From: Vallicoccus soli
Lineage (GTDB): Bacteria; Actinomycetota; Actinomycetes; Motilibacterales; Motilibacteraceae
Assembly (NCBI RefSeq): GCF_003594885.1
Contig: NZ_QZEZ01000009.1
Location: forward strand, 62,001-126,000
Direction: 5' to 3'
DNA length: 64,000 bases
Part shown: positions 4,453-7,834 of the stretch, piece after piece
Layout: each line of letters opens with the position of its first letter
How positions within the stretch are numbered: the stretch's first letter is position 1
Made by a program: the position numbers and the translations under genes
Notes under the pieces: generated by a model
Database searches by the model: none
Told to the model about the DNA's origin: nothing
The model's input: the letters and a program-made list of their open reading frames with translations, nothing else

Positions 4453-4534
4453 GGCAGGTTGCCCGAGTGGCCAAAGGGAGCGGACTGTAAATCCGTCGGC
4501 TCAGCCTACGTTGGTTCGAATCCAACACCTGCCA
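4453..4534 (+). tRNA. tRNA-Tyr (anticodon GTA)
   Basis: Acceptor arms GGCAGGT/ACCTGCC pair perfectly, the discriminator is A, and the anticodon loop CTGTAAA has GTA at 4487-4489. A long variable arm makes it a class II tRNA, as expected for bacterial tRNA-Tyr, and the T loop TTCGAAT is canonical. The 3' CCA is not encoded. A strong terminator follows directly. Confidence 0.97.
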
Positions 4535-4540
4535 CGCCAC

Positions 4541-4648: not shown

Positions 4649-4858
4649 GTGATGACCATCCCCTGGGCGCGCGCCGGGGACCGGTCCGTTGGGAGGATCC
4701 CGGACGGCCGCTCCCGCTGGTGCTGCCCGCCCTCCTGCTGCCACGATGCGTACGCCGAACGTGTGCACGTGCAGCGAGCGGCTCCAGGCCGGTCGGGGGG
4801 AGGTCGAGGTGCTGGTGTACGCAACCGACCCGCTGTCCTGCCCGAGGAGTCACCGTGA
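4649..4858 (+). CDS. Possible leaderless small ORF with cysteine cluster
   Basis: A 69-codon frame (GTG then ATG) that begins where the promoter at 4637 should start transcription, and whose TGA overlaps the next gene's GTG (GTGA at 4855-4858). It contains the cluster WCCPPSCCH around residues 24-32. The first roughly 33 codons show the strong G/C third-position bias of real genes; the second half does not. It may therefore be a short coding leader, a frameshifted gene, or chance. Cysteine-rich leaderless uORFs act as attenuators in mycobacteria, so a regulatory leader role is conceivable. No family recognised. The alternative is a 200-nt untranslated leader. Confidence 0.3.
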   Translation: MMTIPWARAGDRSVGRIPDGRSRWCCPPSCCHDAYAERVHVQRAAPGRSGGGRGAGVRNRPAVLPEESP

Positions 4859-5013
4859 AGCGCATCGCCGCCGTCGTCGCCGCCGCCGTCCTGGCCCCGC
4901 TCGCCGTCCTGGCGACGGCCCCCGTCGTCACGTCGTCGTCCGACGGCGCGACGGTGACCGTCGAGGCCGGCACCCGCTGGGGCTCCGCGGACCGCGGCAC
5001 CCGCTGGGGCTGA
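4855..5013 (+). CDS. Small exported peptide with repeated GTRWG motif
   Basis: 52 residues from GTG 4855 (GAGGAG upstream). It starts MKRIAAVVAAAVLAPLAVLA, a textbook signal sequence (basic n-region, alanine-rich core, ATA site), leaving about 30 mature residues that end GTRWGSADRGTRWG. The two GTRWG units come from a 16-bp direct repeat at 4969-4984 and 4996-5011. The GGDEF-EAL gene starts 30 bp downstream, so they are probably co-transcribed. The product looks like a secreted signal or a small periplasm-facing partner of that membrane protein. No family recognised; function unknown. Confidence 0.6.
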   Translation: MKRIAAVVAAAVLAPLAVLATAPVVTSSSDGATVTVEAGTRWGSADRGTRWG

Positions 5014-5043
5014 GCGGCCCCCCGCGCCCGAGGACGGTGGACG

Positions 5044-7581
5044 GTGCCCCGGCCCGCGGCTGAGGGCGGAGCGCCCTCCCTGGCGCCCTCGCGCGCCGTC
5101 ACGCTGGGGCTCATCCTGCTCGTCGTCGCGCTGCTGCCGGCGGTCGTGCGCACCGGCACCCCCTGGCACGAGGAGCACCTCGTCCTCGGGCTGCTCGTCC
5201 TGGCCGGCTTCGTCGCGGCCGAGGCGGAGCAGCTGCACGTCGAGGTGCGCCGGCACTCCTTCGCCTTCCCGCTCACCGAGCTCGTCCTGGTCGTCGGCTT
5301 TTTCCTCGTCCCGCCGTGGGTCCTGCTCGTCGCCGGGGTCCTCGCCATGGCCGGCCTGGCGCTCGTGCGGCGCGGGAGCGTCGACAAGGCGCTGCTCAAC
5401 GCGGCCCTGCTCGCCGCCGAGGTGTCGGTCGGCGTCGTGATCTTCAACGCGGTCGCGGGCTCGCTGCCGGCCCGCGCGGAGTGGGGGGAGGCGGAGCGCC
5501 TCTGGGGCGCCGCCTACCTCGCCCTCGTCGTCGTGGTGCTCGGCGCCTTCGCGGTCGTGAGCCTCGTCGTGCGCCTCGTGCAGCCGCCCCTGGCGCTGCG
5601 CCAGGTGGTGCAGGCGTCCGTCCCCGCCCTCGTCACGGGGCTCTTCTCCGGCACCCTCGGGCTGCTGGTGGTGCTGCTCATCAGCGCCTCGCCCTGGTCG
5701 ACCGTCGGGCTCGTCCTCGTCGTCGGGGTGCTCGTCGTGGCCTACCGCTCCTACGGCCGGCGCCTGCAGGAGCACAAGGACCTGGCCGAGCTCTACCAGC
5801 TCACCCGCGAGGTCAGCACGACCTTCGCCCAGCAGGGCGTGCTCGACCCCGCGCTGCTCGAGCGGGTCCGCCACCTGCTGCGCGCCGAGGTCTGCCAGCT
5901 CTGGATCGCCGACGGCGGGCTGCTCGTGGTGACCGCGGCCGACCGCGCGCCCCAGCACGGCACCGGCGGCAAGGACGAGGTCCGCCGCCTCGTCATGGAG
6001 GGCCAGTCCGTCCTCACCGACACCCGCAGCCCGTCCGCGGCCCTGCGCGCCGCGCTCGCCGCCCGGCGGGTGCGCGAGGTGCTCGCCGTGCCGCTGCGCG
6101 TGCAGGGCGAGGTGGTCGGCAGCCTCGAGGTCCTCGACCGCCAGGGCGAGCGGTTCCACTTCGTCGAGGGCGACCGGGCCCTGCTCGAGACGCTCGCGGT
6201 CCACCTCGGCGTGGCGCAGGAGAACACCCGCCTCGTCGGGCGGCTGCGCCACGAGGCGTACCACGACCCCCTGACCGGGCTGCCCAACCGCCGGGCCTTC
6301 GTGGAGCGGCTCGACGCCGCCCTGCAGGGGGTCGGCCGCGACGAGCTGCTCGCGGTCCTCGTCCTGGACCTGCAGGCCTTCAAGGACGTCAACGACACGC
6401 TCGGCCGCGCCGCCGGCGACGCGCTGCTCGTCGAGGTCGCGCACCGGGTCCGCGAGTCCGCGCCCGACCCCGAGGCCGTGGCCCGGCTCTCCTCCGACGA
6501 GATCGGGCTCTTCACCGGCGTCCCGGACCTCGAGGCGGCCCAGGCGGCGGCGGCGCGCATGCAGGCCCAGCTCGGCACGCCCGTGCGCATCGCCGGCGTG
6601 GAGGTGGAGGTCGGCGCGGTCGTCGGCATCGCCGTGCACCCCGACCACGGCGACGACGCGACGACCCTGCTGCAGCGCGCCGACGCGGCGATGTACGCCG
6701 CGAAGCGCACCAGCCGCGGGGTGCTGGCCTACCTGCCGGTGATGGAGGCCTCGAGCCCGCGCCGGCTGCGCCTGGTCACCGAGCTGCGCCGGGCCGTCGA
6801 GGCGGGGGACCTGAGGGTCCACTACCAGCCGCAGGTGCGCCTCGCCGGCAGCGAGCTCAGCGGCCTCGAGGCCCTCGTGCGCTGGCAGCACCCCGAGCAC
6901 GGCATCGTCCCGCCCGACGAGTTCATCCCCGTCGCCGAGCACACCGGCGTCATCGGCCCCCTAACCCAGTTCGTCCTGCAGACCGCCCTGGCCGACCTGC
7001 GCGACTGGGGGCGCCGCGGCCACCACTTCGGGATGTCCGTGAACATCTCCGTGCGCAGCCTGCTCGACCCGGGCTTCGTCGAGGAGGTCGGGCACGCGCT
7101 CGCCGCCAGCGGCGTCCCCGCGGAGCGGCTCACCCTGGAGATCACCGAGTCCAGCGTCATGAGCGACCCCGAGCGCGCGGTGCCGGTGCTGGAGCGGCTG
7201 CGCGACATGGGGGTGCGCCTGTCGGTCGACGACTTCGGCATCGGGCACAGCTCGCTGACGTACCTGCGGCGCCTGCCCGTGACCGAGGTCAAGATCGACC
7301 GGTCCTTCGTCTCGACCATGGTCCACTCGCCGGAGGACCTGGCCATCGTGCGGGCCGTCATCGACCTGTCCGAGCCGCTGGGGCTCACCGTCGTGGCCGA
7401 GGGCGTGGAGTCCGAGGAGACGCGCCTGGAGCTGACCCGGCTCGGCTGCGGCGTCATCCAGGGCTACCTGCTGAGCCGGCCGCTGGCCAAGGTCGACCTC
7501 GACCGCTGGCTCGAGCGGCGCACCGTGGCCGGGCGACCCGGCAGCGGGCCGGACCGCCCCCTGCGCGTGGTGAGCGGCTGA
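5044..7581 (+). CDS. Membrane GAF-GGDEF-EAL protein, predicted c-di-GMP phosphodiesterase
   Basis: 845 residues. The first roughly 235 are strongly hydrophobic (several membrane spans); then come a GAF-like sensory domain (about 250-400), a GGDEF domain (about 405-555) and an EAL domain (about 575-825). The GGDEF signature is SSDEI at residues 483-487, so cyclase activity is unlikely, though HDPLTGLPNRRAF is intact. The EAL domain keeps EAL (609-611), NISVRS, EITES, DDFGIG (729-734), KIDRSFV and VAEGVE, consistent with hydrolysis of cyclic di-GMP. GTG start with GAGGA upstream. It follows the exported-peptide gene and probably shares the Crp-site promoter. The membrane domain has no recognised named fold. 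Confidence 0.9.
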   Translation: MPRPAAEGGAPSLAPSRAVTLGLILLVVALLPAVVRTGTPWHEEHLVLGLLVLAGFVAAEAEQLHVEVRRHSFAFPLTELVLVVGFFLVPPWVLLVAGVLAMAGLALVRRGSVDKALLNAALLAAEVSVGVVIFNAVAGSLPARAEWGEAERLWGAAYLALVVVVLGAFAVVSLVVRLVQPPLALRQVVQASVPALVTGLFSGTLGLLVVLLISASPWSTVGLVLVVGVLVVAYRSYGRRLQEHKDLAELYQLTREVSTTFAQQGVLDPALLERVRHLLRAEVCQLWIADGGLLVVTAADRAPQHGTGGKDEVRRLVMEGQSVLTDTRSPSAALRAALAARRVREVLAVPLRVQGEVVGSLEVLDRQGERFHFVEGDRALLETLAVHLGVAQENTRLVGRLRHEAYHDPLTGLPNRRAFVERLDAALQGVGRDELLAVLVLDLQAFKDVNDTLGRAAGDALLVEVAHRVRESAPDPEAVARLSSDEIGLFTGVPDLEAAQAAAARMQAQLGTPVRIAGVEVEVGAVVGIAVHPDHGDDATTLLQRADAAMYAAKRTSRGVLAYLPVMEASSPRRLRLVTELRRAVEAGDLRVHYQPQVRLAGSELSGLEALVRWQHPEHGIVPPDEFIPVAEHTGVIGPLTQFVLQTALADLRDWGRRGHHFGMSVNISVRSLLDPGFVEEVGHALAASGVPAERLTLEITESSVMSDPERAVPVLERLRDMGVRLSVDDFGIGHSSLTYLRRLPVTEVKIDRSFVSTMVHSPEDLAIVRAVIDLSEPLGLTVVAEGVESEETRLELTRLGCGVIQGYLLSRPLAKVDLDRWLERRTVAGRPGSGPDRPLRVVSG

Positions 7582-7654: not shown

Positions 7655-7727
7655 GCCCCAATAGCTCAGTCGGCAGAGCGTCTCCATGGTAAGGAGAAGG
7701 TCTACGGTTCGATTCCGTATTGGGGCT
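7655..7727 (+). tRNA. tRNA-Thr (anticodon GGT)
   Basis: 73 nt. Acceptor GCCCCAA pairs with TTGGGGC, the discriminator is U, and the anticodon arm TCTCC/GGAGA encloses ATGGTAA with GGT in the centre, decoding ACC. D and T arms are canonical. No CCA encoded. Confidence 0.97.
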
Positions 7728-7758
7728 CTGGTGGGACCGCCGCAGGCGGCCCGCCCGC

Positions 7759-7834
7759 AGCGGTGTAGCTCAGTCGGTAGAGCAAGCGGCTCATAATCGC
7801 TGTGTCGCCGGTTCAAGTCCGGCCACCGCTACCA
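7759..7834 (+). tRNA. tRNA-Met, elongator type (anticodon CAT)
   Basis: Acceptor AGCGGTG pairs with CACCGCT, discriminator A, and CCA is encoded at 7832-7834. The anticodon stem AGCGG/TCGCT encloses CTCATAA with CAT at 7792-7794. The fully paired acceptor end argues against an initiator tRNA. It lies 31 bp after tRNA-Thr, probably in the same transcript. Confidence 0.95.

Follow-up and report, generated by a model that had tools for sequence, protein, structure and literature searches.

Bifunctional GGDEF-EAL enzymes of the phosphodiesterase type combine a GGDEF domain and an EAL domain of intact signature with an N-terminal sensing region, and for most membrane c-di-GMP enzymes the signal that is sensed has, to our knowledge, yet to be identified. 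Among multi-span N-terminal domains, MASE9 and other MASE domains (PF20972) are swapped between GGDEF-EAL and histidine kinase outputs. In Gram-positive systems in which a peptide pheromone acts on a membrane receptor, the gene for a small exported precursor adjoins the receptor gene and its sequence is strain-specific; multi-copy pheromone precursors, such as that of yeast alpha-factor, contain several near-identical copies each. In the LapD-LapG-LapA system a c-di-GMP receptor controls a periplasmic protease, LapG, which is a cysteine protease. A term search of a census of sensory inputs to c-di-GMP signalling, published in 2022, found peptides named solely as potential ligands for periplasmic-binding-protein domains (PMC8846402), and quorum sensing has been described as under-explored in Actinomycetota (PMC4748050).

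The locus described here lies in a 64-kb stretch of Vallicoccus soli DNA (hereafter the window), where an open reading frame (ORF) with Gly-x-x-Trp motifs directly precedes, on the same strand, the gene of a membrane GAF-GGDEF-EAL protein. In Actinomycetota this pair represents, at its smallest, a widespread and apparently undescribed pairing, defined by a same-strand ORF with one or more GxxWx motifs directly upstream of a multi-span membrane domain; no description of it was found in the literature searched, which included few subscription papers, so that absence is not proof.

Comparison with described systems

The window protein shares GGDEF and EAL domains, an N-terminal sensing region and an intact EAL signature with the bifunctional enzymes, but it differs from them in an N-terminal domain without a Pfam match, in the sequence SSDEI in place of GGDEF and in its putatively exported Trp-motif partner. 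The exchange of outputs behind one multi-span domain recalls the MASE domains. Of 43 membrane-domain members searched at E values up to 1, three matched MASE9 weakly (the best at E=0.0017), the score of the locus L217 (14.6 bits) lies below the Pfam gathering cut-off of 24.3, and the window protein gave no match to the Pfam MASE9 model. A full-text literature search on MASE9 returned nothing relevant and no polypeptide partner.

Trp-motif cassettes resemble peptide pheromone systems in the position of a putatively exported precursor beside a proposed receptor gene, in the repeated copies and in the strain-specific sequence. Unlike in those systems, no processing sites were identified, fusion of the partner to a protease is common, and the output is c-di-GMP or a phosphorelay reached through a multi-span domain. 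With LapD-LapG-LapA the window protein shares a degenerate GGDEF, and in many loci a GGDEF-EAL membrane protein is linked to an exported protease; however, this protease belongs to family S8 and is not a cysteine protease, a Trp tail is present, and histidine kinase and peptide-only versions exist. A periplasmic domain sequestering a LapG-family cysteine protease, as in LapD-type proteins, finds no counterpart here, as the partner is a peptide in the window and an S8 protein elsewhere. Finally, the five-residue tandem period is that of pentapeptide repeat proteins (PF00805), but most of the repeats considered here carry Trp at a fixed position and the short versions are irregularly spaced. Neither the window peptide nor any of the Trp-tailed proteins scanned matched PF00805. 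Two loci (L164 and L166) have exported pentapeptide-repeat partners with leucine replacing Trp (SGSSL and TGASL, respectively), and L166 was the sole match to PF00805.

The peptide gene and the enzyme of the window

The features of the locus are collected in Table 1. Both ORFs were found where the preliminary description had placed them, with 30 bp between the peptide stop and the enzyme start. The peptide ORF starts with GTG, has a Shine-Dalgarno-like gaggag 7 nt upstream and translates as MKRIAAVVAAAVLAPLAVLATAPVVTSSSDGATVTVEAGTRWGSADRGTRWG, in which a charged start is followed by a hydrophobic stretch and a short polar part with both GTRWG motifs. The hydrophobic stretch might be either cleaved, plausibly after residue 24 between ATA and P, or kept as an anchor. 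The duplication of GTRWG within identical DNA repeats was confirmed, with a repeat length of 17 bp (4968-4984 and 4995-5011) and not the 16 bp given earlier; nine short-range direct repeats of at least 16 bp occur in the 64-kb window. Since the two motif copies are DNA-identical, a selection test on the motif is uninformative for the window peptide itself. A peptide sequence search at the level of genus, family and order yielded no convincing homologue, and among 30 inspected loci with the DNA pattern for GTRWG followed by a stop (393 genomes), all but the window were out-of-frame noise. The placement of both genes under one promoter found no support beyond their close spacing: neither a sigma-70-like promoter nor a terminator was found at the pair.

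Table 1. Features of the window locus, with their positions and the basis of each assignment.
Feature	Position	Strand	Basis
tRNA-Tyr, upstream syntenic marker	4453-4535	+	ARAGORN; likewise precedes the pair in L169
52-aa peptide gene: hydrophobic signal/anchor segment, then two GTRWG motifs	4855-5013	+	ORF with RBS; counterparts in L169, L167, L194, L198
First GTRWG motif, residues 39-43	4969-4983	+	Sequence
Second GTRWG motif, residues 48-52, C-terminal	4996-5010	+	Sequence
845-aa membrane-GAF-GGDEF-EAL protein, proposed receptor/enzyme	5044-7581	+	Pfam PF01590, PF00990, PF00563
N-terminal multi-span membrane domain, ~8 helices, residues ~14-263	5083-5832	+	Homology; weak MASE9 similarity; low-confidence helices
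GAF domain, residues 271-391	5854-6216	+	Pfam E=2e-11
GGDEF domain, degenerate, residues 405-558	6256-6717	+	Pfam E=4e-36
EAL domain, intact signature (EALVRW, DDFGIG), residues 580-813	6781-7482	+	Pfam E=2e-76
tRNA-Thr, downstream syntenic marker	7655-7728	+	ARAGORN; same place in L169, L167, L194, L198
tRNA-Met, after tRNA-Thr	7759-7834		ARAGORN

The domains previously assigned to the enzyme were all recovered with Pfam, the qualification being that its GGDEF signature (6490-6504) reads SSDEI where most homologues have GGDEF, and thus lacks the GG(D/E)EF motif required of an active diguanylate cyclase. The EAL domain scores 257 bits against a Pfam cut-off of 31.3 and carries the EAL and DDFGxG signatures of GGDEF-EAL phosphodiesterases. 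Because the GGDEF is degenerate and the EAL signatures are intact, the window enzyme is probably a phosphodiesterase; in the majority of its homologues both domains are intact. The N-terminal multi-span region has no Pfam assignment, an AlphaFold model from the single window sequence showed low-confidence helices (pLDDT 46, too low a value for fold comparison), a profile search of solved structures returned no credible match, and a recognisable extracellular ligand-binding domain is absent. The pair is located between tRNA-Tyr and tRNA-Thr/tRNA-Met, with a YajQ gene upstream and rpmG downstream.

Orthologues of the window pair

A first scan of the genome collection returned GGDEF-EAL relatives only, none of them closely homologous in the membrane domain; the family of the window genome is represented by five sampled genomes. 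In a tree built by a quick method, with long branches flagged, the window protein groups with those of L194, L198, L169, L165 and L167 (SH-aLRT 89). The locus L169 retains YajQ, tRNA-Tyr, its own Trp-motif peptide, the enzyme, tRNA-Thr and tRNA-Met, with a reverse-strand gene between tRNA-Tyr and the peptide that, by its sequence, looks like an adenylate cyclase; the downstream tRNA or tRNAs are also retained in L167, L194 and L198. In all four loci the ORF directly upstream of the enzyme encodes a short peptide that is hydrophobic at its N-terminus and ends, or nearly ends, in a Trp motif; it has the same position as the window peptide and partial sequence likeness to it, and these syntenic orthologues belong to two other families. 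A single C-terminal motif was found in L167 (GRRWI), L195 (GHRWS), L169 (GVSWS) and L198 (DITWN), and DVVWT lies near the end of the L194 peptide. At L205/L214, which occupy the same tRNA position, no partner was detectable.

Three loci from two families (L194, L198 and L356) have a common element, GTGGAACCTCC, 35-51 nt before the peptide start, and a fourth (L357) has a palindromic variant, TGGAACTTCCA, upstream of its peptide. These elements are possibly the mark of a common regulator.

Trp-motif partners across Actinomycetota

Within the class, 47 of 393 genomes contained homologues of the membrane domain, as did 89 of 396 genomes sampled across the phylum. The upstream DNA of about 85 of these homologues was read for ORFs and very often revealed, immediately 5' on the same strand and frequently overlapping, an ORF in which a Gly-x-x-Trp-x motif recurs. 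In most cases this ORF encodes a subtilase (S8) of 500-670 aa ending in a tandem array of 10-20 Trp pentapeptides (GAGWR, GSSWR, GLRWN, GLTWR, GASWT, GTAWT, GSQWS, GRTWA, GHTWS and others). About 50 versions of the GxxWx motif occur, GTRWG among them. A short peptide like that of the window replaces the S8 protein in about ten loci, including L188 (four SHTWE in 113 aa), L225 (three GSGWH), L230 (three GASWN), L223 (three ASIWN), L218 (four GTGWH) and L219 (three GVKWG). Most of the short peptides have a hydrophobic N-terminus. The peptides of L218/L352 (the same gene) and L219, of 39 and 33 aa, have no signal sequence, a feature that fits poorly with an exported ligand. A small acetyltransferase-like ORF is inserted between the Trp-tailed S8 gene and the membrane-domain enzyme in L176 and L211. 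In the window genome itself, the S8 protein of L296 (G000:C4:45417-46274) has the tail LARSWRGSTWLARSWRGF, the same as in the S8 protein beside the paralogous GGDEF-EAL gene (L097), and is not adjacent to a membrane-domain gene.

The output domain varies as well. L217 encodes a GAF-PAS-histidine kinase according to Pfam, and L220 (its close homologue), L273, L274 and L275 are homologues of this kinase. What stays constant is therefore the combination of Trp motif and membrane domain, while the type of partner (protease or peptide) and the output vary, and it is mainly for this reason that the two constant elements are taken to interact. A pair with an exchangeable output, GGDEF-EAL or histidine kinase, is not specifically a c-di-GMP device; of the c-di-GMP switch proposed in the preliminary description, the pairing with the enzyme stands and the specificity for c-di-GMP does not.

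The association was quantified with a rule requiring a Trp 4-mer at least three times in a same-strand ORF ending between -450 and +110 of the start. This rule was positive at 37 of 72 distinct membrane-domain loci, at none of 40 control EAL genes (drawn from six of the genomes that supplied the loci, with a more generous window) and at one of 830 random antisense positions (Fisher p=8e-10, the loci being related and the counts phylogenetically non-independent). Alone, a Trp 4-mer present twice says little: among the random antisense positions 45 of 830 reach this number, as do six of 40 control genes. The strength of the window observation comes from the comparison at three or more copies and not from its own two. 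About ten further loci have two copies, a single C-terminal motif, the leucine-type pentapeptide version or a one-gene insertion. In the phylum-wide sample of other classes, about half of L361-L390 have a Trp-tailed ORF upstream.

Adjacency was also conserved in the reverse direction. The DNA pattern TGG(N12)x5 retrieved four Trp-repeat S8 proteins absent from the first list, all four followed by a membrane-domain gene, three of these being histidine kinases. Among 26 readable S8 loci, a membrane domain follows in eight of nine with a tail (seven of nine before the L274 kinase was counted) and in none of 17 without (p=6e-6), three of the nine tailed loci (L273-L275) having themselves been found through the Trp pattern.

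About a third of the membrane-domain genes have no detectable partner, among them L205/L214, a group of about 1250 aa and the hybrid kinases L092/L093. In L182, L191, L199, L203, L212, L215 and L227 the membrane-domain gene lies in an open frame of about 1250-1300 aa without a Trp partner, and these frames may contain an extra N-terminal part. L092 and L093, from two relatives in the family of the window genome, are hybrid histidine kinases that share the membrane domain but lack a Trp partner.

Motif diversity and selection

In another family (f9), all seven orthologues, L225 included, carry a peptide with three to four motifs, each strain having its own (GSGWH, GTGWH, SNGWQ, GASWN, GTSWH, GATWN or ASIWN), and the enzymes of the other orthologues are 65-74% identical to that of L225. 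Together with the peptides of L169, L167, L194 and L198, these seven support well the earlier proposal of a peptide-partnered enzyme; homologues were examined for consistent absence of the peptide gene and for loss of its frame, and neither was found. The Trp motif is under constraint at the protein level, its copies within a peptide diverging almost only synonymously (pN/pS 0.06 for ten peptides, an indicative value as the pairwise counts overlap). Sister rows in the tree tend to share a motif (GLRWN, GLTWR, GRTWA, GHTWS), and the pairs compared within the family of the window carry distinct motifs. Adjacent pairs within a single genome (G001) also differ (GSSWR, SHTWE, ARSWR, SQSWS), which looks like a set of private channels, the specificity being suggested by the motif differences.

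Proposed mechanism and alternative explanations

On balance, we cautiously favour reading the peptide and the enzyme as a two-gene cassette of an exported Trp-motif ligand and a distantly MASE9-like membrane receptor, and we infer that the enzyme senses the peptide. Judging from its hydrophobicity, the peptide would be exported, or anchored facing outwards, and would display Gly-x-x-Trp motifs that the adjoining multi-span domain may recognise. The signal would pass outside-in from the membrane domain through GAF to the output, and in the window the state of the ligand would alter c-di-GMP breakdown by an EAL phosphodiesterase with a degenerate GGDEF. The window cassette would represent the minimal form of a family in which the commoner partner is an S8 protein with a tandem GxxWx tail and the output is alternatively a histidine kinase. 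A broader claim, that diversifying self-encoded GxxWx polypeptides are private ligands of a MASE9-like receptor that directly sets c-di-GMP or kinase output, with several parallel insulated channels per genome, is put forward tentatively and could well prove wrong.

The Trp motif might instead be an anchoring or sorting tag held by the membrane domain, the signal reporting successful export or loss of the tagged protein and not serving communication between cells. Its C-terminal and repeated occurrence, ending either an S8 protein or a small peptide, and the strict, often overlapping gene order would suit such surveillance, but peptides without cargo exist, motifs differ between pairs of one genome in a way more like specificity than a shared tag, and a cleavage or sortase-like signature was not found; we consider this unlikely. 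Somewhat less likely again is a reversed, LapD-like direction, with the membrane GGDEF-EAL protein reading cytoplasmic c-di-GMP and controlling the exported partner through its Trp tail. That the majority of exported partners are S8 proteases beside GGDEF-EAL proteins recalls LapD-LapG, and the GGDEF of the window is degenerate as in receptor-type proteins; however, the replacement of GGDEF-EAL by histidine kinases in L217, L220 and L273-L275 fits an input rather than an output, the partner is sometimes a protease-free peptide, and most homologues have intact GGDEF and EAL domains.

It is highly improbable that the two genes are operon neighbours without functional interaction, or that the peptide is a leader (a Trp-codon attenuator) tuning translation of the enzyme. 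Close spacing and the shortness of some peptides, two of them without a signal, would be compatible with either, whereas the adjacency holds in both directions and only for the membrane domain, and an attenuator explains neither S8 partners of such length nor the synonymous-only divergence of the whole motif; an Rfam scan near the pairs found tRNAs only and no regulatory RNA. The attenuator was rejected in view of the frequency of complete S8 proteins among the partners and of the conservation of the entire motif. We give even less credence to the window peptide being a spurious ORF in GC-rich DNA: two-copy Trp 4-mers do occur by chance in 5-15% of comparable stretches and the exact peptide has no homologue, but its RBS, its N-terminal hydrophobic segment and its position speak against this, as do the Trp-motif peptides that syntenic orthologues from two other families carry in the corresponding place.

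Implications

Under the cassette reading, one sensor domain, present in 89 of the 396 sampled Actinomycetota genomes, seems to have its ligand pointed out by the genome itself. We know of no earlier ribosomally made ligand acting directly on the membrane sensor of a c-di-GMP enzyme, and if the private-ligand reading is true, the Trp-motif polypeptides would be the first. The pairing would supply ready-made, testable combinations of ligand and receptor whose sequences differ between strains, and would make peptide communication accessible in Actinomycetota.
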